64,000 nucleotides of DNA from Hymenobacter aerilatus (GTDB lineage: Bacteria > Bacteroidota > Bacteroidia > Cytophagales > Hymenobacteraceae): NCBI RefSeq assembly GCF_022921095.1, contig NZ_CP095053.1, positions 2,522,501 through 2,586,500 on the forward strand. Direction: 5' to 3'. The translations under genes were made by a program, and so were the position numbers. The notes beneath the pieces are model-generated. The model was given only the letters and a program-made list of their open reading frames with translations, was not told the origin of the DNA and did no database searches. Positions 5,071 to 63,610 of this stretch are shown here, in pieces. Each line of letters opens with the position of its first letter. Within the stretch, counting starts at the first letter, position 1.

Positions 5071-5110
5071 TGAGGGGAGGGGAGGAAGGTGTGAAGGTAA
5101 GAAGGGTAAG

Positions 5111-5222
5111 AAGGGTGTCATCCTGAGCGCAGCGAAGGACCTTCTCACGTCTGAACGACAAGCGTAATAAAGACTCGCCCTCACGTGAGAAGGTCCTTCG
5201 CTGCGCTCAGGATGACACCCTT
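5111..5222. repeat. Family-1 intergenic hairpin repeat, copy 2
   Basis: Perfect 40-bp arms at 5111-5150 and 5183-5222 around a 32-nt loop. The covarying segment is GCGCAGC/GCTGCGC. Outside the arms the flanks (purine-rich at left, pyrimidine-rich at right) continue to match imperfectly for about 30 bp. It sits between convergent genes. Confidence 0.95.
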
Positions 5223-5260
5223 CCTACTCTCCTCTACCTTCCCTACCCTCCTACCCTACC

Positions 5261-7652: not shown

Positions 7653-7753
7653 TGTCATCCTGAACGCAGTGAAGGACCTTCTTATGTTAGAACAATGTCG
7701 TGTAAACGACTCGTTCTAACATAAGAAGGTCCTTCACTGCGTTCAGGATGACA
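7653..7753. repeat. Family-1 intergenic hairpin repeat, copy 3
   Basis: Perfect 41-bp arms at 7653-7693 and 7713-7753 with a 19-nt loop. The covarying segment is ACGCAGTG/CACTGCGT, differing from copy 2 on both arms together. It lies 14 bp past the gldG stop codon. Confidence 0.95.
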
Positions 7754-9506: not shown

Positions 9507-9605
9507 GTTATCCTGAGCTTGTGAAGGACCTTATGCCCGCAGAACAAATCGTTGGTACGAGCATCGTTCTGTTGTGAGAAAGTCCTTCACTGCGCTCAGG
9601 ATGAC
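9507..9605. repeat. Family-1 hairpin repeat with mismatched arms, copy 4
   Basis: The left arm reads GTTATCCTGAGCTTGTGAAGG and the right CCTTCACTGCGCTCAGGATGAC, so the segment that covaries in other copies does not match here. It looks decayed or recombined. It lies between gldG and gldF. Confidence 0.85.
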
Positions 9606-10378: not shown

Positions 10379-10492
10379 ACTTTTCTGTCATCCTGAGCCT
10401 GCGAAGGACCTTCTCACAGCAGAAAGGTTCGTTATTACGCCTATCGTTCTTCCGTGAGAAGATCCTTCGCAGGCTCAGGATGACAGAAAAGT
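10379..10492. repeat. Family-1 intergenic hairpin repeat, copy 5
   Basis: 39-bp arms at 10379-10417 and 10454-10492 with one mismatch. The covarying segment is GCCTGC/GCAGGC. The mirrored match includes the flank ACTTTTCT/AGAAAAGT outside the family core. It lies between gldF and gldA. Confidence 0.95.
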
Positions 10493-22327: not shown

Positions 22328-22467
22328 AAAAAAGCGTTTGTCATCCTGAGCATTCCGCGCATCAAGCGGCGACGAAGGACCTTATGCCAGTTGAACGAGT
22401 CGTTGTTACGCCTGTCGTTCTTACGTGAGAAGGTCCTTCGCAAGCTCAGGATGACAAACGCTTTTTT
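22328..22467. repeat. Family-1 hairpin repeat with an inserted mini-hairpin, copy 9
   Basis: 24-bp perfect outer arms at 22328-22351 and 22444-22467 include the locus-specific AAAAAAGCGTTT. The left arm has an extra 20-odd bp (CCGCGCATCAAGCGG can itself fold) that the right arm lacks. It separates the response regulator from its kinase, starting one base past the stop codon region. Confidence 0.88.
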
Positions 22468-41361: not shown

Positions 41362-41461
41362 GTCATCCTGAACGCAGTGAAGGACCTTCTCACGCGTGAA
41401 CGATACTCGTAACAACGAATCGTTCACGCGTGAGAAGGTCCTTCACTGCGTTCAGGATGAC
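41362..41461. repeat. Family-1 intergenic hairpin repeat, copy 10
   Basis: Perfect 43-bp arms at 41362-41404 and 41419-41461 around a 14-nt loop. The covarying segment is ACGCAGTG/CACTGCGT as in copy 3, but the inner stem (CACGCGTGAACGAT) is unique. It lies between convergent galT and GH43 genes. Confidence 0.95.
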
Positions 41462-47512: not shown

Positions 47513-50002
47513 ATGAATAAAGCCTTCTTGCTGAGCCTGGGTCTGTTTCTGACTACCGCTGCGACTACGCAGGCGCAAACCCCGGCTACGGCTACCACTG
47601 TAGCCGAGGCCACTCCTTACCGTGCCACCGCCACCAAGCGCAACGATCTGGTGCACACCAAGCTCGACGTGCGCTTCGACTATAAAAAGCGCTACCTCTA
47701 CGGCAAAGAATGGGTGACGCTGAAGCCCCACGCCTACCCTACCGACTCGCTCCAGCTCGATGCCAAGGGCATGGATATTCAGACTGTAGCGCTAGTAAAT
47801 GGCAATGCCAATCAGCCGCTGAAATTCACCTACGACGAGGAGTTTCTGCGCATCAACCTGGGCAAAACTGTGCAACCGGGCACTGAGTACACGGTGTACA
47901 TCGAGTACACGGCCAAGCCCGACGAGCTGAAAGTGAAGGGCTCGGCGGCCATTACCGATGCCAAAGGCTTGTACTTCATCAATCCCGACAGCTCGGTGGC
48001 TGGCAAACCGGTGCAGATCTGGACCCAGGGCGAGACGGAAGCCTCCTCGGCGTGGTTCCCTACCATCGACCGACCCAACCAGAAAACCACTTCGGAAATT
48101 TCGATGACGGTGCCCAGCAAGTACGTAACGCTGAGCAACGGCAAAATGACCGACAGCAAGCCTGCCGGCGCTGGCCTCCGCACCGACACCTGGAAGATGG
48201 AACTGCCCCACTCGCCCTACCTCTTCATGATGGCTGTGGGCGACTTCAAAATCACGCACGACACGTGGCGCGGCAAGCCGGTAGATTATTACCTGGAGCC
48301 CAAATACGCGCCCTACGCTAAGGCAATCTTCGGCAATACGCCCGAGATGCTGGAGTTCTTCTCGAACCGCTTGGGCGTGGAATACCCTTGGAATAAGTAT
48401 GCCCAAGTAGTAGCCCGCGACTACGTGAGCGGCGCCATGGAAAATACCACCGCTACCCTACACGGCGAGGCGGTAGCTGGCACAGCCCGCGAAATGCTGG
48501 ACCGCCCTTACGGCAGCAGTGAGTCGATTGTGGCGCACGAGCTGTTTCACCAGTGGTTTGGCGACTACGTAACGGCCGAAAGCTGGAGCAACCTGACCGT
48601 GAACGAGTCGTTTGCCGATTTCTCGGAAGGCCTATGGGCCGAGCACAAGTATGGCAAAGACGCCGCCGACGCCCACCGCTTTGGCTATATCCGGCGCTAC
48701 CTCAGCGGCCCCGGCAATGCCCAGAAGGACCTCGTGCGCTTCCACTACGCCGACAAAGAAGACATGTTTGATGGCGTGACCTACCAAAAGGGCGGTGCTA
48801 TTCTGGATATGCTGCGCACCTACCTCGGCGACGACGTCTTCTTCAAATCCCTCACCAAATATCTCACCGACAACAAGTTCGGCAACGGCGAAGCACACCA
48901 GCTACGCCTGGCCTTCGAGGCTATGTCGGGTAAGGATTTGAACTGGTTTTTCAACCAGTGGTACTTCGGCGCCGGCCATCCCGTAGTGACTATCGACTAC
49001 GGCTGGGATGCAGCCACCAAACAGCAGAGTGTCACTATCAAGCAAACGCAGGAAGGGCAAAAGTTCATCCTACCCCTGGCTATTGATGTGTATGTGAAGG
49101 GTAAGGCCGAGCGCCATCAGGTGTTGATGACGGAAGGCACGCAAACGTTCCGTTTTGCTGCTGCTGGCCAGCCTGAGCTGGTGAACGTGGATGCCACCAA
49201 AATGACGCTCTGGCAGAAAACCGACAACAAGCCGTTTAGCGCCTATGTGTACCAATACCAGCACGCGCCCCTGTATCTCGACCGGCGCGAGGCGCTGGTA
49301 GCGGCCCAGTCGCGCCAGAAGGAAGATGCTGCCGCCCGCACCCTGTTGTTCTCGGCTCTCAACGACAAATTCTACGGTCTGCGCTTGGCCGCTGCCCAGT
49401 CTCTGGACCTGAAAAATGCTGATCTGCGCAAGAAAGCGCCCGCCCTGTTGCGCAAGCAGCTCAGCCAGGAAAAGGAAACTGCCGTGCAGGCCGCATTGCT
49501 CAGCAGCCTCGCTACCCTCAACGATAAGCGTGACCAGAATCTGTACGAAAAGTACCTTGACAACCAGTCGTACAATGTACAGGGGGCGGCCCTCAACGGC
49601 CTGAGCCTGACCAAGCCTGCCGTGGCCCTGAGCCGTGCCAAATCATTGGAGGCCGATAGCCGTGGGGCCCTCACGCAAGCCATTACCGAAGTGTATGCCA
49701 AATACGGCGACGCCAGCCAGTGGCCCTATATTCAGGCGCAGTTTGATGAAGCGGGTGCGCAACAACGCATCAACATGCTGGAAGCTTTGGATGAGGTAAT
49801 GGTGCGCACCACCGATCCGGCCATCTTCAATGCGGCCCTCACCCGTGTGAAGGAGTTGGGCATCAAGTACAAGCAATACGGCATCGACCAAGCGGTACTG
49901 GGTTTGCTGGGTGATGTGCAGCAGCGTAAAACCGGCGCTACGGCTACCCAGGCCAAACAAGACCTTGAAAAAGCCGCGCAGGAAATCCAGCAAGCGCAGT
50001 AG
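47513..50002 (+). CDS. M1-family zinc aminopeptidase
   Basis: 829 residues from the ATG at 47513, with a signal peptide (NKAFLLSLGLFLTTAATTQA). The exopeptidase motif is GAMEN (around residue 307), the zinc site HELFH with His342 and His346, and the third ligand Glu365 in NESFADF. The C-terminal half is helical and HEAT-like. It should trim N-terminal residues from peptides in the periplasm. The open frame runs further upstream through the regulator gene, but no signal or motif starts there. Confidence 0.95.
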   Translation: MNKAFLLSLGLFLTTAATTQAQTPATATTVAEATPYRATATKRNDLVHTKLDVRFDYKKRYLYGKEWVTLKPHAYPTDSLQLDAKGMDIQTVALVNGNANQPLKFTYDEEFLRINLGKTVQPGTEYTVYIEYTAKPDELKVKGSAAITDAKGLYFINPDSSVAGKPVQIWTQGETEASSAWFPTIDRPNQKTTSEISMTVPSKYVTLSNGKMTDSKPAGAGLRTDTWKMELPHSPYLFMMAVGDFKITHDTWRGKPVDYYLEPKYAPYAKAIFGNTPEMLEFFSNRLGVEYPWNKYAQVVARDYVSGAMENTTATLHGEAVAGTAREMLDRPYGSSESIVAHELFHQWFGDYVTAESWSNLTVNESFADFSEGLWAEHKYGKDAADAHRFGYIRRYLSGPGNAQKDLVRFHYADKEDMFDGVTYQKGGAILDMLRTYLGDDVFFKSLTKYLTDNKFGNGEAHQLRLAFEAMSGKDLNWFFNQWYFGAGHPVVTIDYGWDAATKQQSVTIKQTQEGQKFILPLAIDVYVKGKAERHQVLMTEGTQTFRFAAAGQPELVNVDATKMTLWQKTDNKPFSAYVYQYQHAPLYLDRREALVAAQSRQKEDAAARTLLFSALNDKFYGLRLAAAQSLDLKNADLRKKAPALLRKQLSQEKETAVQAALLSSLATLNDKRDQNLYEKYLDNQSYNVQGAALNGLSLTKPAVALSRAKSLEADSRGALTQAITEVYAKYGDASQWPYIQAQFDEAGAQQRINMLEALDEVMVRTTDPAIFNAALTRVKELGIKYKQYGIDQAVLGLLGDVQQRKTGATATQAKQDLEKAAQEIQQAQ

Positions 50003-50016
50003 GTGGTGAGTGGTGA

Positions 50017-50172
50017 AATGGTGAATTTGTGAAGTAAAAGCGCCTGTCATCCTGAGCTTGCGAAGGACCTTATCATGTCAGAACTACTTTCGTAACAACG
50101 AATTGTTCTTGCGTGAGAAGGTCCTTCGCAAGCTCAGGATGACAGGCGCTTTTACTTCACAAATTCACCATT
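50017..50172. repeat. Family-1 hairpin repeat with very long arms, copy 12
   Basis: Perfect 54-bp arms at 50017-50070 and 50119-50172 around a 48-nt loop. The covarying segment is GCTTGC/GCAAGC. The outer 20 bp (AATGGTGAATTTGTGAAGTA) are specific to this locus yet are exactly mirrored. It lies between two genes of the same direction. Confidence 0.96.
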
Positions 50173-50216
50173 CTATGAGAAGCTGAACTTTCCACGGCGC
50201 GGGCGTGTCGGGAGCT

Positions 50217-51068
50217 ATGCGCACGACCATATTGCTGACGGCTACCGGCTTGCTTCTGCTTGCTGGTCCGGCCCGCACCCTGGCCCAGAACCTCCCCTCC
50301 GACCCTGTAGAAAATGCGGATACGCCTTTTATCCGCAACCTCCGCCCCGACCGTCCGGGCCAGACCGTTACGACCAGTATGCTGCATCCCGGCCAGGTGC
50401 AGGTGGAACTGGGGACTTTGCGTTACGCGCCGCCAGATGGCTTGGGCCCGCGCCGCACGTTGTCGTCGGCGCTGCTGCGGGTAGGCTTTTTCAACCACAT
50501 AGAGCTTCGGGCTTCGCAAGGGTATTTAGCGAGCGTATCCGCTCCTACCCCTGTCGGCGATGCGCCATTGCCTACCCTACCCTCTTACTCCAGCGGCTTT
50601 GCCCCGCTCACAGTAGGAGCTAAGTTCCTCGCTTCCAGCAACCAAGATGCTCGCTCTCAGGTGGTACTGCTTACCGAGCTGACCCTACCCACCGGCGACG
50701 CATCCTACCCTAACCAAACCTACGAGCCGGCAGCCCGCTTGCTGGTATCGCAGCAGCTGGGCCAGCGCTACGGCCTGGAGGCCAACGTGGGCTTTCGGCA
50801 GCGCGGCTTCCGGGCCGAGGGCACCAGCCAAGGACACTACTTGGGCACCTTAGCGCTGAATGGAGCTATTCTGCCCACCATCGGCTTTTTCGCCGAAACG
50901 TATACTTTCTGGCAGCGCATCTATGGCTGGCAGCCGGGCCTCACGGGCGGCTTGTACTGGCGCCTCCTCCCTGGCCTGCGCCTTGATCTGAATGCCGGAA
51001 ATACTTGGCGTGCAGGCCGTGCCGCCCCGCAGATAGGCGCTGGATTAAGCGTGCGGCTACCGAAATAG
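50217..51068 (+). CDS. Outer-membrane beta-barrel protein, MetA-like transporter family
   Basis: 283 residues from the ATG at 50217, with a signal peptide (MRTTILLTATGLLLLAGPARTLAQ). An outer-membrane barrel of the 'MetA-pathway of phenol degradation' transporter family is suggested by IRNLRPDRPGQTVTTSMLHPGQVQVELG and by the regular beta-strand pattern ending QIGAGLSVRLPK. Members are found in many Bacteroidota without known substrates. It is followed by a convergent hairpin repeat. Confidence 0.78.
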   Translation: MRTTILLTATGLLLLAGPARTLAQNLPSDPVENADTPFIRNLRPDRPGQTVTTSMLHPGQVQVELGTLRYAPPDGLGPRRTLSSALLRVGFFNHIELRASQGYLASVSAPTPVGDAPLPTLPSYSSGFAPLTVGAKFLASSNQDARSQVVLLTELTLPTGDASYPNQTYEPAARLLVSQQLGQRYGLEANVGFRQRGFRAEGTSQGHYLGTLALNGAILPTIGFFAETYTFWQRIYGWQPGLTGGLYWRLLPGLRLDLNAGNTWRAGRAAPQIGAGLSVRLPK

Positions 51069-51083
51069 TGAAAAAGTGAAGAG

Positions 51084-51228
51084 GTAAATAACGAGTAAAG
51101 GGGGTATCATCTTGAGTGCAGCGAAGGACCTTCTTCATTCGAACGACGGTCGTACCAATGACTTAGTTCGTACGTGAGAAGGTCCTTCGCTGCACTCAGG
51201 ATGACACCCCCTTTACTCGTTATCTTAC
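51084..51228. repeat. Family-1 intergenic hairpin repeat, copy 13
   Basis: Arms of about 47 bp at 51084-51130 and 51181-51228 with three differences. The covarying segment is GTGCAGC/GCTGCAC. The flank GTAAATAACGAGTAAAGGGG is locus-specific and mirrored on the other side. It fills a convergent gap, ending 3 bp before the M28 stop. Confidence 0.94.
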
Positions 51229-51231
51229 CGT

Positions 51232-52536
51232 CTACTCCTTCGCTACACGTGTAGGGGTTTGCTGGCCCGATATAATGCCGGTGGCGCTGCGGGCAATAGC
51301 GTTAATGACAGCCGTCATATTCTTTAAATCCAGGCTCTCAATTTCATCATCGACGGAGTGGTAGAGCTTATCCGTCGGAATCTGGTCGGTGCTGATGGTA
51401 TGGGCCGGTACGCCTAGTTTTGCTAGTGTAGCGTTGTCGGAGCGGTAGAATAGGTTTTGCTCGGGGTAGGGGTCGGGTTCGAAACGGAAGGGCGAACCTT
51501 GTAGGTTCTGTTGTAGCAGCGGGCCAAAGTTGCTGCGCTCATAGCCGGTGATGAAGGCCGTGTTGGGGCCAAACTTCGCTATTTTGCCAATCATCTCAAT
51601 GTTGAACATAGCCACCACCTTCTCCGGGTCGAGTTGGCGAGAGAAATACTGCGAGCCGAACCCACCTATCTCCTCAGCCGTGAAAGCTGCAAACACCAGC
51701 GTACGGGCGTTTTTCTTCTGTTTCTTGTAGTACTCAGCCAGGGCTACCACGGCTGTAGTACCGCTGGCATCGTCGTCAGCGCCGTTGGCGATGGAGTCGC
51801 CGGCTACGGCTTTGATAATGCCCAGGTGGTCGTAGTGCGCCGAGAAGACCACCATTTCTGGGGCCAGTTTTTTGTCGCGGCCGGGTAGCACTCCTACCAC
51901 ATTGCGCATGGCTATCGGCCGGATAGTGGTAGCGCCCGTAACGGCATAGGTAGGCGCCTCACTATTTAACGGTGTAGTGGCCAGCAACATAACAACGGCA
52001 TGTTCCGCTGGCTTCTGGCCTTTCACAGAGCCGCGGTTCAGCCCCAACAACCGCTTAAACGGCGCCTGATGGGTAGGGTCTACCACCACCACGGCGTCTT
52101 CGTGCAGGTCTAGCAGCGGCCGCACCACTTGGTACAGGTTGTCTTGAGCGCCGACCACAACGGTACGCACTCCGGCATCGGCATTGGTCCAGCTGACCTG
52201 CGGCCGGCCTGAAACCAGCACAATGTTATCTGCGGGCAGGTCTGCCCCATTTAGGGTAGCTGTGCGGGCGGTGGCTTGTGCCTCATAGGCCTCAAACTCC
52301 TGCAAAAATCCGCTTTGACCAGGCAACGGCTTTAGTCCGATGCGCTTGAATTCAGCCGCCAGAAACTGGCCGGCTTTCAGGTTGCCGGGGCCGGCGCTGG
52401 GGCGGCCGCCCATATCGTCGGCCGTAAGAGTGCGGGCCACGCGCTCCACGGTAGCCGCCGATACAGCCGGTTGCTTTTGGGCAGTAGATGAAAAGCCAAT
52501 CAGCAAGCCAGCCGTTAAGAGAAGAAGGTGTTTCAT
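51232..52536 (-). CDS. M28-family zinc peptidase
   Basis: 434 residues with a signal peptide (MKHLLLLTAGLLIGFSSTAQ). The binuclear zinc site can be read as His in FSAHYDHLGI, Asp in NGADDDASGT, the catalytic Glu pair in FTAEEIGGFGS and the last His in KLYHSVDDEIE. A PA-like insert (residues about 120-170) stands between. It is a periplasmic aminopeptidase or carboxypeptidase of the IAP/glutaminyl cyclase-like fold. It runs in the same direction as the hypothetical gene at 52623, across an 86-bp gap. Confidence 0.93.
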   Translation of the reverse strand: MKHLLLLTAGLLIGFSSTAQKQPAVSAATVERVARTLTADDMGGRPSAGPGNLKAGQFLAAEFKRIGLKPLPGQSGFLQEFEAYEAQATARTATLNGADLPADNIVLVSGRPQVSWTNADAGVRTVVVGAQDNLYQVVRPLLDLHEDAVVVVDPTHQAPFKRLLGLNRGSVKGQKPAEHAVVMLLATTPLNSEAPTYAVTGATTIRPIAMRNVVGVLPGRDKKLAPEMVVFSAHYDHLGIIKAVAGDSIANGADDDASGTTAVVALAEYYKKQKKNARTLVFAAFTAEEIGGFGSQYFSRQLDPEKVVAMFNIEMIGKIAKFGPNTAFITGYERSNFGPLLQQNLQGSPFRFEPDPYPEQNLFYRSDNATLAKLGVPAHTISTDQIPTDKLYHSVDDEIESLDLKNMTAVINAIARSATGIISGQQTPTRVAKE

Positions 52537-52622
52537 GAAGCAAGCTTACTGCTTTGCACTAGGTTCTGCAACTGAGTGGTAGGTGAACTACAAAAGACGC
52601 AATATAATGCGCCTCTCCTTCC

Positions 52623-53390
52623 CTACCCAGCCGGATCCACTACCCGCATCAGCACCATCAGGTCAGCCTCCGATTTGCCCATGCTCCGGTTGCGGTCGGC
52701 TTCGCTTTTCAATTTGGACGTTAGCTCCGGCGCCGCGCTTTGCAACGCTTTCAGTGTGAGTTTGGTGATAGGAACTACTGTGCCATCGGGCCGGCACAGG
52801 TAGTATGTTTCCTTGGTCACTAGCTCGTCGTAGCGTTTGTCTTGGCTATAGGCGCCTTTGTAGCTGGCTTGCTCCATTTTCTTTTGGTACTGCTTGAGCA
52901 CCGTATACTTGCCCTCATGCAGCACCTCCACAAACTCGCGGCCCTGCGCTGGATTCGGGGCTTCCGCGAAGCGCCGAAAGCGCCGCTCGGGGATAGAGCC
53001 ACCGGCATCCGTCAGCACGAAGCTTTTCACGCGGTTTTCGTTCAGCAACATCGAGTCGGTGCGGGCAGGCTGACGGGCGTAGAGGAGCTGCTGCACCACA
53101 TCGTATTTCAGCAACACAGGTTGCAGTTTCACATCGTGGTCGGTGGTGACGACGGCCGGCAGCCAGCGGGCAATGGCGTAGGGTGAACCTACCAGTCCCT
53201 GATAGCGCGTATCAACGGTATAACCCTGGCCCCCGCGCACAATAGAGTTGATGTTCTCCTGGGCCATCACGCCGCTGCCGCTCGTCGGCACCTGGCTCAC
53301 CTGCGCCTTGCTTTGTTGCATTGCCAACCCCAACAAGACGGCCGCGACTCCGCCCCAACGAACTGCCCACTGTGTAGTTGCGTACTGCAT
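52623..53390 (-). CDS. Exported hypothetical protein
   Basis: 255 residues. A signal peptide-like N-terminus (VAAVLLGLAMQQSKAQ). The rest is soluble with no motif I recognise: GYTVDTRYQGLVGSPYAIARWLPAVV, then YYLCRPDGTVVPITKLTLKAL near the C-terminus. It resembles Bacteroidota proteins annotated only as hypothetical, and is possibly periplasmic. No functional statement can be made from the context. Confidence 0.7.
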   Translation of the reverse strand: MQYATTQWAVRWGGVAAVLLGLAMQQSKAQVSQVPTSGSGVMAQENINSIVRGGQGYTVDTRYQGLVGSPYAIARWLPAVVTTDHDVKLQPVLLKYDVVQQLLYARQPARTDSMLLNENRVKSFVLTDAGGSIPERRFRRFAEAPNPAQGREFVEVLHEGKYTVLKQYQKKMEQASYKGAYSQDKRYDELVTKETYYLCRPDGTVVPITKLTLKALQSAAPELTSKLKSEADRNRSMGKSEADLMVLMRVVDPAG

Positions 53391-53553
53391 AATGATTCTA
53401 ATTTTTAAATAAAGAGAATGTTCCGACGTTGGCTCTAACGGTTCTGCTTTTCTGGCAGTATGCAGTGGTCTACCCCGTTTGTATACATAGATAAGCAGCT
53501 GCCCACAAAGTTTTATGTTTGCTGCTCATTCTTTGCTTTTTTCTTACTATTCC

Positions 53554-54021
53554 ATGCGCATCCCTCTGCTTTTCACTACTATAACCACCGCGGCGTTGCT
53601 TGGCAGCTGCGCCACCCGCGAGCCGGCCGAAACCAACCAGACACCTGCTACCGCTGCAACGCCCCTCCGCGGCACGTACTGGGTGCTTCACCAACTAGGC
53701 AATTCAGCCGTGACTACTCCCGCAGACAGCCAGGAGCTATACCTTACCTTGAGTGCCGACAGCAGCAACAGCGCCCAAGGGCAAGCCGGCTGCAACCGCT
53801 TTCGGGGCCGCTTCACTCTCGCCGCCAACGATCAGCTGAGCTTCTCACCGCTCATGTCCACCAAAATGGCATGCCCGCGCTTGGCGTTGGAAAGCCGCTA
53901 CATAAGCGCCCTCGAGGGCACTACCCGCTACCAACTCGCCGGCGACACGCTGCGCCTACTAGGTGCCCCCGCCGGTACGCAAGTGGTGGCACAATTTCAT
54001 GCCGGTACAGCTCCAGAGTAA
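53554..54021 (+). CDS. META-domain lipoprotein
   Basis: 155 residues from the ATG at 53554. The lipobox is in ALLGSCATRE. The META fold follows: YWVLHQLGN, SNSAQGQAGCNRFRGRFTLA (the GxxGCNxFxG core), MSTKMACPRLALESRYISAL, and DTLRLLG. META domains (HslJ-like) are found in outer-membrane or surface proteins linked with heat or antibiotic tolerance in other bacteria. The stop codon adjoins a palindrome shared with the pyc gene end. Confidence 0.9.
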   Translation: MRIPLLFTTITTAALLGSCATREPAETNQTPATAATPLRGTYWVLHQLGNSAVTTPADSQELYLTLSADSSNSAQGQAGCNRFRGRFTLAANDQLSFSPLMSTKMACPRLALESRYISALEGTTRYQLAGDTLRLLGAPAGTQVVAQFHAGTAPE

Positions 54022-54106
54022 AGAGGTATTGAGTTAAAAAGCGTCTGTCATCCTGAGCGAAGGACCTTCGCTCAGGATGACAGACGCTTTTTAACTCAAT
54101 ACCTCT
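54022..54106. repeat. Near-perfect 85-bp palindrome, compact family-1 form, copy 14
   Basis: Perfect 42-bp arms around a single central base. The middle part is CTGTCATCCTGAGCGAAGG and its mirror, the core without a loop. The outer 20 bp AGAGGTATTGAGTTAAAAAG are locus-specific and mirrored. It starts right after the META stop codon and ends in the first base of the pyc stop codon, so it is the entire gap. Confidence 0.96.
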
Positions 54107-57100
54107 TACCCCAGCGTCAGCACCAAATCGTCGGCATTCACGAGGGTGCCTTCTTCCAGCGTTACGGCTTCCACGGTGGTATCGTCGGGGGCCGTGATGG
54201 TGGTTTCCATTTTCATGGCCTCGATGATGAACAGCGGCGCGTTGCGCTTCACTTCCTCACCAGGCTTCACCAGCACGCGCGACAACAACCCTTGCAGCGG
54301 CGCACCTACTTGGCGGGGGTTGGCTTTGTCGGCCTTGGCGTTTTGGACCTTCTTCACTTCCACCGACCGGTCGCGCACTTCCAGGTTGCGGGTTTCGCCA
54401 TTGATGGAAAAGAACACGGTACGCTTGCCCTCGTCGTTGGCAATGCCCAAAGAGCGGAACTTCACAATGATGCTCTTGCCTCGGGCAATGTCGATGATGC
54501 TTTCCTCGCCGGGCTGCATACCGTAGAAAAACAGCCGTGTAGGCACCACCGACACGTCACCGTACTCCTGCACAAACGCCCAGTACTGCTCGAACACTTT
54601 AGGATAGAGCAAGTAGGAAAGCAAATCCGTAAACTCCACGCCCGGCCCAAATTTTTCCTGGAACGCCTTCCATTCCGCATCAAAGTCGATGGGTTCCAGA
54701 TGGGCGTTCGGGCGGTCGGTGTACGGCTGCTGGTCTTTCAGGATGATTTCCTGCAACCCCTCGGGCCAGCCACCCTCGGGCTGCCCAATGTCGCCGCGGA
54801 ACAGGCTTTGCACCGATTCGGGGAAGTTCAACGTCTGGCCTTTGTCCCACACGTCCTGAGTGGTCAGGTTGTTCGATACTAGGAACAGGGCCATATCGCC
54901 TACTACCTTCGAGGACGGTGTCACCTTCGTGATGTCGCCGAACAGCTGGTTCACGTCGGCAAACGTCTTTTTAATCAGCTCAAACTTATCGGCCAGGCCC
55001 AGAGCCGCGGCCTGCGGACGTAGGTTGGAATACTGCCCACCAGGAATTTCGTGCTGAAACACGTCGGCCGACCCAGCTTTCAGACCCGATTCAAACGGCT
55101 GGTAGTACGTGCGCACGCCTTCCCAATAGTTGCTGAACTCGTTGAGGCTCTGCTGATCAAACTCGCGGTGGCGGGGCGTGTGGCGCAACATTTCCACCGT
55201 GGCGTTGAAGTTGGGCTGCGAAGTGAGACCCGAAAGGCTACCCAAGGCTACATCAATCACATTTACGCCGGCCTCTACGGCCTTGAGGTAGGTAGCAGCT
55301 TGCAGGCTGCTGGTGTCGTGGGTGTGCAGGTGGATGGGTAGGCTCACGGTGTCGCGCAGGCCCGCAATTAGCTCCTGGGCAGCGTAGGGCTTCAAGAGGC
55401 CCGCCATGTCCTTGATGCAGAGGATATGGGCGCCAGCATCTTCAATTTGCTTGGCTAGGCGCAGGTAGTAGTCCAGGTTGTACTTCTTGTTCTGTGGGTC
55501 CAGCAGGTCGTTCGTGTAGCAGATGCTGGCCTCGGCCAGTCCTTGCGTTTTCTCGCGCACAAACCGGATGCAGCTCTCCATGCCCGGCATCCAGTTCAGC
55601 GAGTCGAAAATGCGGAACACGTCGATACCGGTTTCCCAGCTCTGTTGCACGAAGCGCTCTACCAGGTTGTCGGGGTAGGCCTTGTAGCCCACGCCGTTGG
55701 CACCCCGGATCAGCATTTGCAACAGAATGTTGGGCACGGCCTCACGCAGCTTGGCCAGGCGCTCCCAGGGGTCTTCGTGCAGAAAGCGTAGGGCTACATC
55801 GAAGGTGGCACCGCCCCAGCACTCCAGCGAAAACGCTTGGGGGTGCTGCTTGGCGAAGCGCTCGGCCACCTTCAGCATATCAAACGTGCGCATACGCGTG
55901 GCCAGCAGGCTCTGGTGGGCGTCGCGCAGGGTGGTATCGGTGTAGTGAATGAGGTTGTCCTCGCGCAGCCACTTGGCAAAGCCCTCCGGCCCCAGCTCGG
56001 TGAGGCGGTTTTTGGTACCGGGGGGATAGGGCGCGGTAGCGTCGTAGTGGGGCAGCTTGGGCTTGGGCATGTCGCGGGCCGGGTCCTGGGCACCGTGCAC
56101 GTCGGGGTTGCCGTTCACGATGATGTCGCCTAAGAAGCTCAGCAGCTTAGTACCGCGGTCCTGACGCACCTCAAACTTAAACAGTTCGGGGTGGTCTTTG
56201 ATAAAGTCAACCGTAGCGCTACCATTCTGGAAATCAGGGTGCGATACGATATTTTGCAAAAACTGAATATTGGTGCGCACGCCCCTAATCCGGAACTCCC
56301 ACAGGGTGCGCAGCATCCGTTCGGCGGCCTCCTTAAGGGTAGGCGCCTGCGCCGACACCTTCACCAGCAGCGAGTCGAAAAACGGTAGAATCTTGGCGCC
56401 CTGGTACACCGAGCCCTGGTCGAGGCGAATACCAAAACCGCCCGCCGAACGGTAGGCCACGATGGTGCCATAATCGGGCTTGAAGTCGTTTTCGGGGGCC
56501 TCGGTGGTGAGGCGGCACTGCAAGGCAAAGCCCGTGATGCGGGGCCGCACCTGCGGATCGAGGTTGATTTCGGGGTCCTGCAAGTGGTAACCCGACGCGA
56601 TATAGAGCTGGGTTTTGATGAGGTCGACGCCCGTCACCATCTCCGTGACGGTGTGCTCTACCTGAATGCGCGGGTTAACCTCAATGAAGTAAATCTCGCC
56701 CGCTTCCGGCTTCACCAAAAATTCCACTGTGCCCACGTTGTTGTAGTTCACAGCGCGGGCCAAGCGCAGGGCGTAGTCATAGAGCTGTTCGCGTAGTTCC
56801 TCAGCCAGGCCTAGCGCGGGCGCCACCTCTACTACCTTCTGAAAGCGGCGCTGCACGGAGCAGTCACGCTCATAGAGGTGCGTCACGCTGCCGTAAGCGT
56901 CGGCCACTACCTGCACCTCAATGTGCTTGGGCTGCTCCACAAACTTTTCCAGGAACACGGTATCGTCGCCGAAGGCTTTTAGAGCCTCGTTGCGGGCCTC
57001 GAAAAAGCCTTTTTCCAGCTGGTCATCGTCGCGGATGACGCGCATGCCCCTACCCCCGCCGCCCGAGGCAGCCTTCAGCATCACGGGGTAGCCGATACGG

Positions 57101-61374: not shown

Positions 61375-61476
61375 CTGTCATCCTGAGCCTGCGAAGGACC
61401 TTCTACCAATTGAACGACCATCGTAACGACAACTCGTTCAATTGGCAGAAGGTCCTTCGCAGGCTCAGGATGACAG
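61375..61476. repeat. Family-1 intergenic hairpin repeat, copy 15
   Basis: 43-bp arms at 61375-61417 and 61434-61476 with one mismatch, covarying segment GCCTGC/GCAGGC. The inner stem CAATTGAACGA is specific to this copy. It ends 32 bp before the photolyase start codon. Confidence 0.95.
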
Positions 61477-63519: not shown

Positions 63520-63610
63520 TCCTGCTGAACAGAGTCGAAGCCTCTCGCGTGCTGATGCTAGATAATATCCAACGTCAGCACGCGAGAGGCTTCGACTCTG
63601 TTCAGCAGGA
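63520..63610. repeat. Family-2 hairpin repeat
   Basis: Perfect 36-bp arms at 63520-63555 and 63575-63610 around a 19-nt loop, beginning TCCTGCTGAACAGAGTCGAA. It has the same build as family 1 but a different core. It lies between the TetR-like and ABC1 kinase genes. Confidence 0.93.

Follow-up and report, generated by a model that had tools for sequence, protein, structure and literature searches.

Why should DNA that belongs to a single place in a genome be found there twice, as inverted copies on the two sides of a small repeat? The question is raised by a stretch of 64,000 nucleotides of Hymenobacter aerilatus (contig NZ_CP095053.1, positions 2,522,501 to 2,586,500 of the forward strand), hereafter called the window, whose gene gaps contain head-to-head pairs of a short repeat resembling repetitive extragenic palindromic (REP) sequences. 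Beyond the conserved core of several of these pairs, the locus-specific flanks still mirror each other; all five places at which a first-pass annotation of the window had noted such inverted flanks do carry them, with slightly changed base counts. We regard hairpin-guided template switching in DNA synthesis (quasipalindrome correction) as the best explanation of the mirrored flanks, and as probably the correct one.

Each element consists of two REP-like units placed head-to-head (TGTCATCCTGAGC..GAAGGACC), with the arm consensus TGTCATCCTGAGC-apex-GCGAAGGACC and a span from GTCAT to ATGAC of mostly 98-100 bp. Genome-wide, the pattern GTCATCYTGAR-N(2-12)-GAAGGACCTT recovered 177 arms in forward and 168 in reverse orientation, and the reversed control pattern none. 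A motif script was run over 580 kb, comprising the window with the DNA around it and a further 20 stretches positioned at elements, and found 57 head-to-head pairs, the one arrangement that was counted. The script overlooks more diverged elements such as that at window position 51088, so that the window total of 13 elements comprises 12 found by motif and 51088 added from separate inspection. The arm tag is TGTC in 90, CGTC in 3 and something else in 3 of the 96 arms of 48 elements. The REP apex variant is identical in both arms of 24 elements among 37 in the 580 kb (22% by chance) and unlike in the other 13.

Mirrored flanks are far more frequent than accidental matching would make them. Each left flank was re-paired with the right flanks of other elements, giving 3192 re-pairings as a null. 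Flanks mirrored exactly over at least 8 bp are present at 18 of the 57 elements versus 0.50% of re-pairings, over at least 12 bp at 11 versus 0.09%, and over at least 20 bp at 4 versus 0.00%, the longest reaching 41 bp. With mismatches allowed, 22 elements have a mirrored flank of at least 8 bp (null 1.2%), and in the subset bordered by A-tracts on both sides the figure is 10 of 20 versus 1.6%. Chance was accordingly rejected as the cause, overall and again within the A-tract class. No palindrome of score 18 or more arose in three random sequences modelled on the W, G088 and G011 stretches in their dinucleotide transitions. Because mirrored flanks stand so far above the re-pairing null, the mirrored copies are not due to chance, although most copies are unmirrored. 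The claim of the first-pass annotation that the flanks are unique to their places stands for the greater part: six of seven long flanks tested (17-24 bases, up to 3 mismatches) have no other copy in the 580 kb beyond their own arms. The seventh, on L178, has 6 matches, however, and some flanks are partly of recurrent kinds, consisting of A-tract plus CG or of heptad arrays.

Orthologous gaps were compared by eye with H. citatus (CIT), with H. profundi (PRO) and between two other Hymenobacter genomes, G074 and G011, and by script with the same genomes plus the further Hymenobacter pair G088 and G069. Among 21 site pairs, flanks are mirrored in both species in 7, in neither in 8 and in one in 5; one pair (99785 on the window scale), whose partner flank was cut, was dropped. 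The seven doubly mirrored pairs provide 138 flank columns, of which 85 are unchanged, 46 have changed alike in both arms, none holds a conserved left-right difference and 7 behave otherwise, single changes being under-counted because the mirrored stretch was selected as such. Judging by these alignments, a third of columns changing in step is not what would be expected of two independently drifting arms. At window 50017, for example, both flanks have the sequence AATGGTGAATTTGTGAAGTAAAAGCGCC in this genome and GTGAAGTTGTGAAGTTGTGAAAGAAAAAGCGCC in H. citatus, several changes being mirrored in both arms.

The clearest one-sided comparison comes from an extra site, L172:10000, at which the element is present in all three species. 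In H. profundi its flank GGTAGGAGGATAGGAAGTAAA is confined to the left side. H. citatus has a like flank of about 37 bp on both sides, the right one as the mirror image of the left, and this genome has 14 mirrored bp with one mismatch. The right flank of H. citatus scores 20 (p 0.0005) against the left flank of H. profundi but only 8 (p 0.43) against the right one, whereas this genome and H. profundi agree in their right flanks (score 13, p 0.03). The likeliest reading is that H. citatus acquired its right flank as an inverted copy of the left one, the alternative being a loss of the flank in H. profundi and of most of it in this genome. This was the ortholog comparison proposed in the first-pass annotation for an inverse duplication of flanks by strand switching, and its outcome supports that suggestion. 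A weaker case lies 5 kb beyond the window end (69074 on the window scale), where the H. citatus right arm differs from that of H. profundi at bases now equal to the left arm.

Changes within the arms follow the same pattern. Of 190 orthologous palindrome comparisons tried, 41 were retained, the rest being without ortholog, without palindrome or without a like palindrome in the partner; a palindrome was required in both species, and species pairs share sites. In these 41 comparisons both arms have changed at 64 paired positions, where the single-arm rates would predict about 11, and at 57 of the 64 the new bases are complementary. The excess amounts to 31 versus 6.0 expected between this genome and H. 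citatus and is weaker between G074 and G011 (8 versus 1.5). Spacers could be classified in 14 of 53 loop comparisons, of which 9 agree in orientation and 5 are inverted. By eye, three of the inverted spacers (CIT/PRO 74270, and G074/G011 113016 and 167438) look locus-specific; the loops of the other two (this genome/CIT 108078 and CIT/PRO 71072) resemble the usual one of the family and could be separate insertions.

These observations can be accommodated by a simple series of events. The REP-like head-to-head pairs would fold into long hairpins, within or across which a strand could switch template during DNA synthesis and copy one arm onto the other. Such copying would make the arms identical and sometimes leave the spacer inverted. 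Wherever the switch point lay outside the element, the other side would receive an inverted copy of the neighbouring unique DNA and the palindrome would lengthen, in the extreme case as far as the nearest stop codons. Direct support is provided by mirrored flanks beyond chance, the excess of matching changes in both arms, the one clear comparison of a one-sided with a mirrored flank, the spacer inversions and the lack of an RNA-pairing bias (see below). From these we infer that the arms are exchanged by template switching rather than by some other arm-to-arm process, as well as its frequency and direction; selection against changes in coding ends would then set the outer limit of the palindromes. 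A bolder extension, which we advance tentatively and consider more doubtful than not, is that in one branch of Hymenobacter the REP hairpins seed palindrome growth, repeated template switching pushing the arms into unique DNA until coding sequence is reached. A mutational process, and not selection or transposition, would in that case build long bidirectional hairpins and rewrite both sides together. The template-switch process itself is known; for its extension into the unique flanks of bacterial REP pairs no report was found, literature searches having shown nothing on mirrored flanks of REP pairs in the titles and beginnings of abstracts among the matches listed.

Other origins of the flanks deserve consideration. 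The first-pass annotation had also suggested that elements land in the loops of existing terminator hairpins, so that the flanks were inverted beforehand. The setting of the elements lends this some appeal: an A4 tract lies within 16 nt on the left of 27 and on the right of 26 of the 57 elements (on both sides of 20), against a background of 4.6%, and mirrored flanks favour convergent gaps, where 14 of 23 elements have them, over tandem and divergent gaps, with 8 of 31 (p 0.013). Such A tracts beside the elements suggest that they may serve as bidirectional terminators. A few REP families are moreover described inside conserved palindromes in the account of Di Nocera et al. (PMC3733652). Insertion into a loop is nevertheless improbable. 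The mirrored bases abut the core for at least 8 bases, with no leftover loop, in 18 of the 22 mirrored elements, and the flanks vary between species, in both arms alike, yet remain mirrored. The only empty gap examined for a mirrored element, that of H. profundi at L172:18352, has about 50 bp from stop to next ATG and no strong hairpin at this single site (-4.6 kcal/mol over 55 nt). In 34 further cases the gap in the partner species is without a palindrome of score 18, smaller hairpins lying outside this screen. What remains of the suggestion is thus the location of the elements among A tracts.

Selection on RNA hairpins acting as bidirectional terminators, with compensatory changes, would make copying unnecessary, and the predominance of complementary double changes, the enrichment in convergent gaps and the A tracts adjoining the core are all in keeping with it. 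If RNA pairing kept the arms alike, however, the leftover mismatches should be mostly G-U, and no such bias was observed: mismatches in tandem gaps, read on the transcribed strand, are 33 G-U, 32 A-C and 21 other, with crude gene directions based on open reading frames and with core mismatches included. Long mirrored flanks also extend outside the A tract, where intrinsic terminators are not known to need such sequence, and they are present in tandem and divergent gaps as well. Together, the lack of a G-U bias, the mirrored flanks in tandem gaps and their course beyond the A tracts speak for a process at the level of DNA; with the differences in mirrored length and the spacer inversions, they make RNA selection a very unlikely origin. 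It is hardly more credible that the mirrored flanks, with their A-tract, CG and heptad arrays, belong to a longer mobile element of which different copies were swapped at the same gaps. Flanks of recurrent kinds do exist, such as AAAAAGCG beside the core and, in several places, heptads resembling GGTGAGA; other copies match into the 50017 flank, and several gaps hold different palindrome families at the same position in two species. Against this stand the six long flanks without a second copy, a 21-base piece of the flank at 54021 that is confined to its own two arms genome-wide (up to 3 mismatches), and the H. profundi element at L172:10000 with its left flank only.

Template switching thus remains the preferred reading, but a number of results weigh against it. 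Mirrored flanks are absent from 35 of the 57 elements (at least 8 bp, mismatches allowed). The first-pass annotation had held that unrelated flanks at most copies would leave its examples as a few chance cases; most copies do have unrelated flanks, but the remainder lie far beyond chance. Several extra sites, on L172, L178, L182 and L183, were chosen for long mirrored flanks in this genome. Arms within a genome are closer to each other than to their orthologs in 14 of the 21 site pairs, which is not significant (p 0.07). At L172:10000, the preference for gain over loss rests on parsimony across three species. The case at 10379, where H. citatus has conserved the right flank but not the matching left one, is weak (8 bp, p 0.04). 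With a divergence of about 15% between this genome and H. citatus, no individual event can be observed directly. Between G074 and G011, single-arm changes outnumber matching ones (40 versus 8). Template switching further predicts that elements with mirrored flanks have more similar REP arms and apices, and this prediction came out non-significant, both for the arms (median 1 versus 2 differences, p 0.11) and for the apices (alike in 13 of 17 versus 13 of 22, p 0.32). Finally, a search with a generic motif found mirrored REP flanks at 19 of 44 elements in this genome and 5 of 20 in H. citatus, but at only 2 of 50 in other Hymenobacter (1 of 19 in G074, 0 of 15 in G011, 1 of 6 in G088, 0 of 10 in G069). 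Loss of the hairpin nucleases SbcD and exonuclease VII was considered as the cause of this clade difference and rejected, since both families have a match in all seven genomes checked and so do not account for it.

In the window, the mirrored stretch beyond the core measures 7 bases or more in 7 of the 13 elements. The palindrome at 54021-54107 fills the gap between two convergent genes, with the stop codons TAA/TAA mirrored at a one-base gap, just as had been annotated. On either side of a collapsed REP pair at 54047-54081 lie 26 mirrored bases that are specific to the locus (54021-54046 and 54082-54107), giving perfect arms of 43 bases around a spacer of 1 base and a fold of -75.1 kcal/mol. 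The REP pair has shrunk to 35 bp, as if by deletion between short CCTTC repeats of both REP units. The neighbouring pyruvate carboxylase gene (pyc) has its top matches in Hymenobacter and shares 97% amino-acid identity with H. citatus and H. profundi. In H. profundi the same gap contains a palindrome of other sequence with 42-base arms, in which TAG/TAG are mirrored where this genome has TAA. The gap after pyc holds a palindrome of score 16 or more in 14 of 52 loci of Hymenobacter and close kin, with arms that are mostly unrelated, 16 to 42 bases in length, and start 1 to 24 bases past the last matched codon. Palindromes in gaps are not confined to the REP-like repeat. An other-family palindrome (TCCTGCTGAACAGAGTCGAAGCC) occupies window 63520-63610, where H. 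profundi and H. citatus have a ACCCCACCCCCCG-type palindrome, and orthologous gaps of G074 and G011 (e.g. 119120, 120286 and 184388 of the G074 stretch) hold palindromes of quite different repeat families.

The REP pair at 50046-50143 lies in a tandem gap and is bordered by exact mirrored flanks of 29 bases outside GTCAT (50017-50045 and 50144-50172). Its palindrome is perfect, as had been annotated, but 55 instead of 54 bases were counted per arm. Degenerate heptad arrays (TGGTGAG, TTGTGAA) follow the stop codons at window 50002-50045, at about 3240-3283 of L182, and at about 5544 and at 53018 of G016:C28. Their 7-base spacing presents TGA in each reading frame in turn, and arrays of this kind lie inside several mirrored flanks. 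At the L182:3283 site, H. citatus and H. profundi (L221, L222) are about 0.7 kb longer, possibly owing to a gene lost from this genome. In a convergent gap, the REP pair at 51088-51223 has exact mirrored flanks of 18 bases (51088-51105 and 51206-51223), and the H. profundi site has a REP pair with different mirrored flanks. The pair at 712-811 has 20-base flanks within 692-831, mirrored at 19 of 20 positions (11 exact, then one mismatch), where H. citatus has 45 bp of a different mirrored flank. Flanks of 12 exact mirrored bases (within 22328-22467) surround the pair at 22340-22455, the left REP apex of which has a one-sided insertion at 22352-22373. This longer apex insert, ATTCCGCGCATCAAGCGGCGAC, is present in one arm only, both here and at G016:C28 near 73326; another, CATCTGGCGTCCGC, is found at G016:C28 in one arm near 130043 and in both arms near 74255. 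The remaining mirrored elements are the pairs at 5117-5216 (11-base flanks within 5106-5227, 10 of 11 mirrored, 7 exact) and at 10387-10484 (8-base mirrored flank within 10379-10492).

Six elements, at 7653, 9507, 11436, 20238, 41362 and 61375, fall below that limit of 7 bases. The REP pairs at 7653-7753 (41-base arms, core only) and 41362-41461 (43-base arms) have unmirrored flanks. At the imperfect pair at 9507-9605 the unmirrored left and right flanks have little in common with each other, but each has hardly changed between the two species compared; unmirrored sites can thus behave like ordinary DNA. The pair at 61375-61476 has a mirrored flank of 2 bases only, and its arms, set against those of H. 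citatus and against those of H. profundi, deviate at 6 of 43 aligned pairs, both arms alike each time.

As to how the elements themselves move, transposases of the RAYT type (REP-associated tyrosine transposases) were considered and rejected, since this genome has no match to PF01797 (Y1_Tnp) at E 0.001, a search that was positive in 5 of 14 control genomes including Escherichia coli. A PF01797 match is present in 83 of 120 genomes of the genus, and the exact repeat motif is absent within 3.4 kb at all four PF01797 loci inspected, in four genomes. Rfam gave no match at the gathering threshold for window 49900-54300. A literature search for the string GTCATCCTGAGC yielded occurrences only in papers unrelated by title, and a paper search on palindromic intergenic repeats of Hymenobacter found nothing.

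If the proposed mechanism is correct, template-switch mutations could be read from bacterial gene gaps at numerous natural loci in each genome, and their direction, length and rate, for which reporters are otherwise used, could be measured there. Paired arms that co-vary between species would not need to imply a selected RNA structure, and a route would be at hand by which repeat insertions become long hairpins.

Several known systems resemble the one described here. The CGTC-tagged REP dimers of Di Nocera et al. (2013, PMC3733652) are, in the account given there, likewise short stem-loops paired head-to-head in convergent and tandem gaps by gene ends; no dedicated transposase was found for them. 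Their unpaired tag is CGTC, however, and because the tag is mostly TGTC here the Hymenobacter repeat is not filed with them; CGTC forms were spotted by eye in G074 and G011, which carry AACGTCATGC forms. The few families reported inside conserved palindromes there also differ from the locus-specific mirrored flanks found here. REPINs mobilised by RAYTs, as portrayed in PMC3116915, share the organisation of REP doublets as hairpin-forming inverted repeats with many extragenic copies, but the present genome is without a PF01797 match and its tag is not GTAG. For the perfect inverted repeats of Nematomorpha mitochondria, concerted arm evolution by template switching has been proposed (PMC6649704); those palindromes lie inside mitochondrial protein genes, the present ones in bacterial gene gaps around a repeat family. 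Multibase compensatory changes have also been ascribed to template switching in RNA stems (PMC8794818), where the setting is RNA genes and structure-breaking changes are reported to be rarely fixed, whereas no sign of RNA-pairing selection is seen here.

A counterpart of the proposed mechanism is quasipalindrome template switching, which is described as established in E. coli, with lacZ reporters, and in yeast (PMC7202029, PMC3820800), with a strand bias reported for both. In these systems imperfect inverted repeats are perfected from one arm to the other, and clustered changes extend complementarity. In Hymenobacter, too, the comparison of species points to arms made into perfect complements by several changes together, more weakly in G074 and G011. 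Homogenisation of arms with inversion of the spacer, documented in yeast (PMC8604942), has its parallel in 5 of the 14 classifiable spacers. The Hymenobacter case differs in being drawn from a comparison of species at natural REP pairs, and in the blocks of unique flanking DNA, up to tens of bases long, that are mirrored there.

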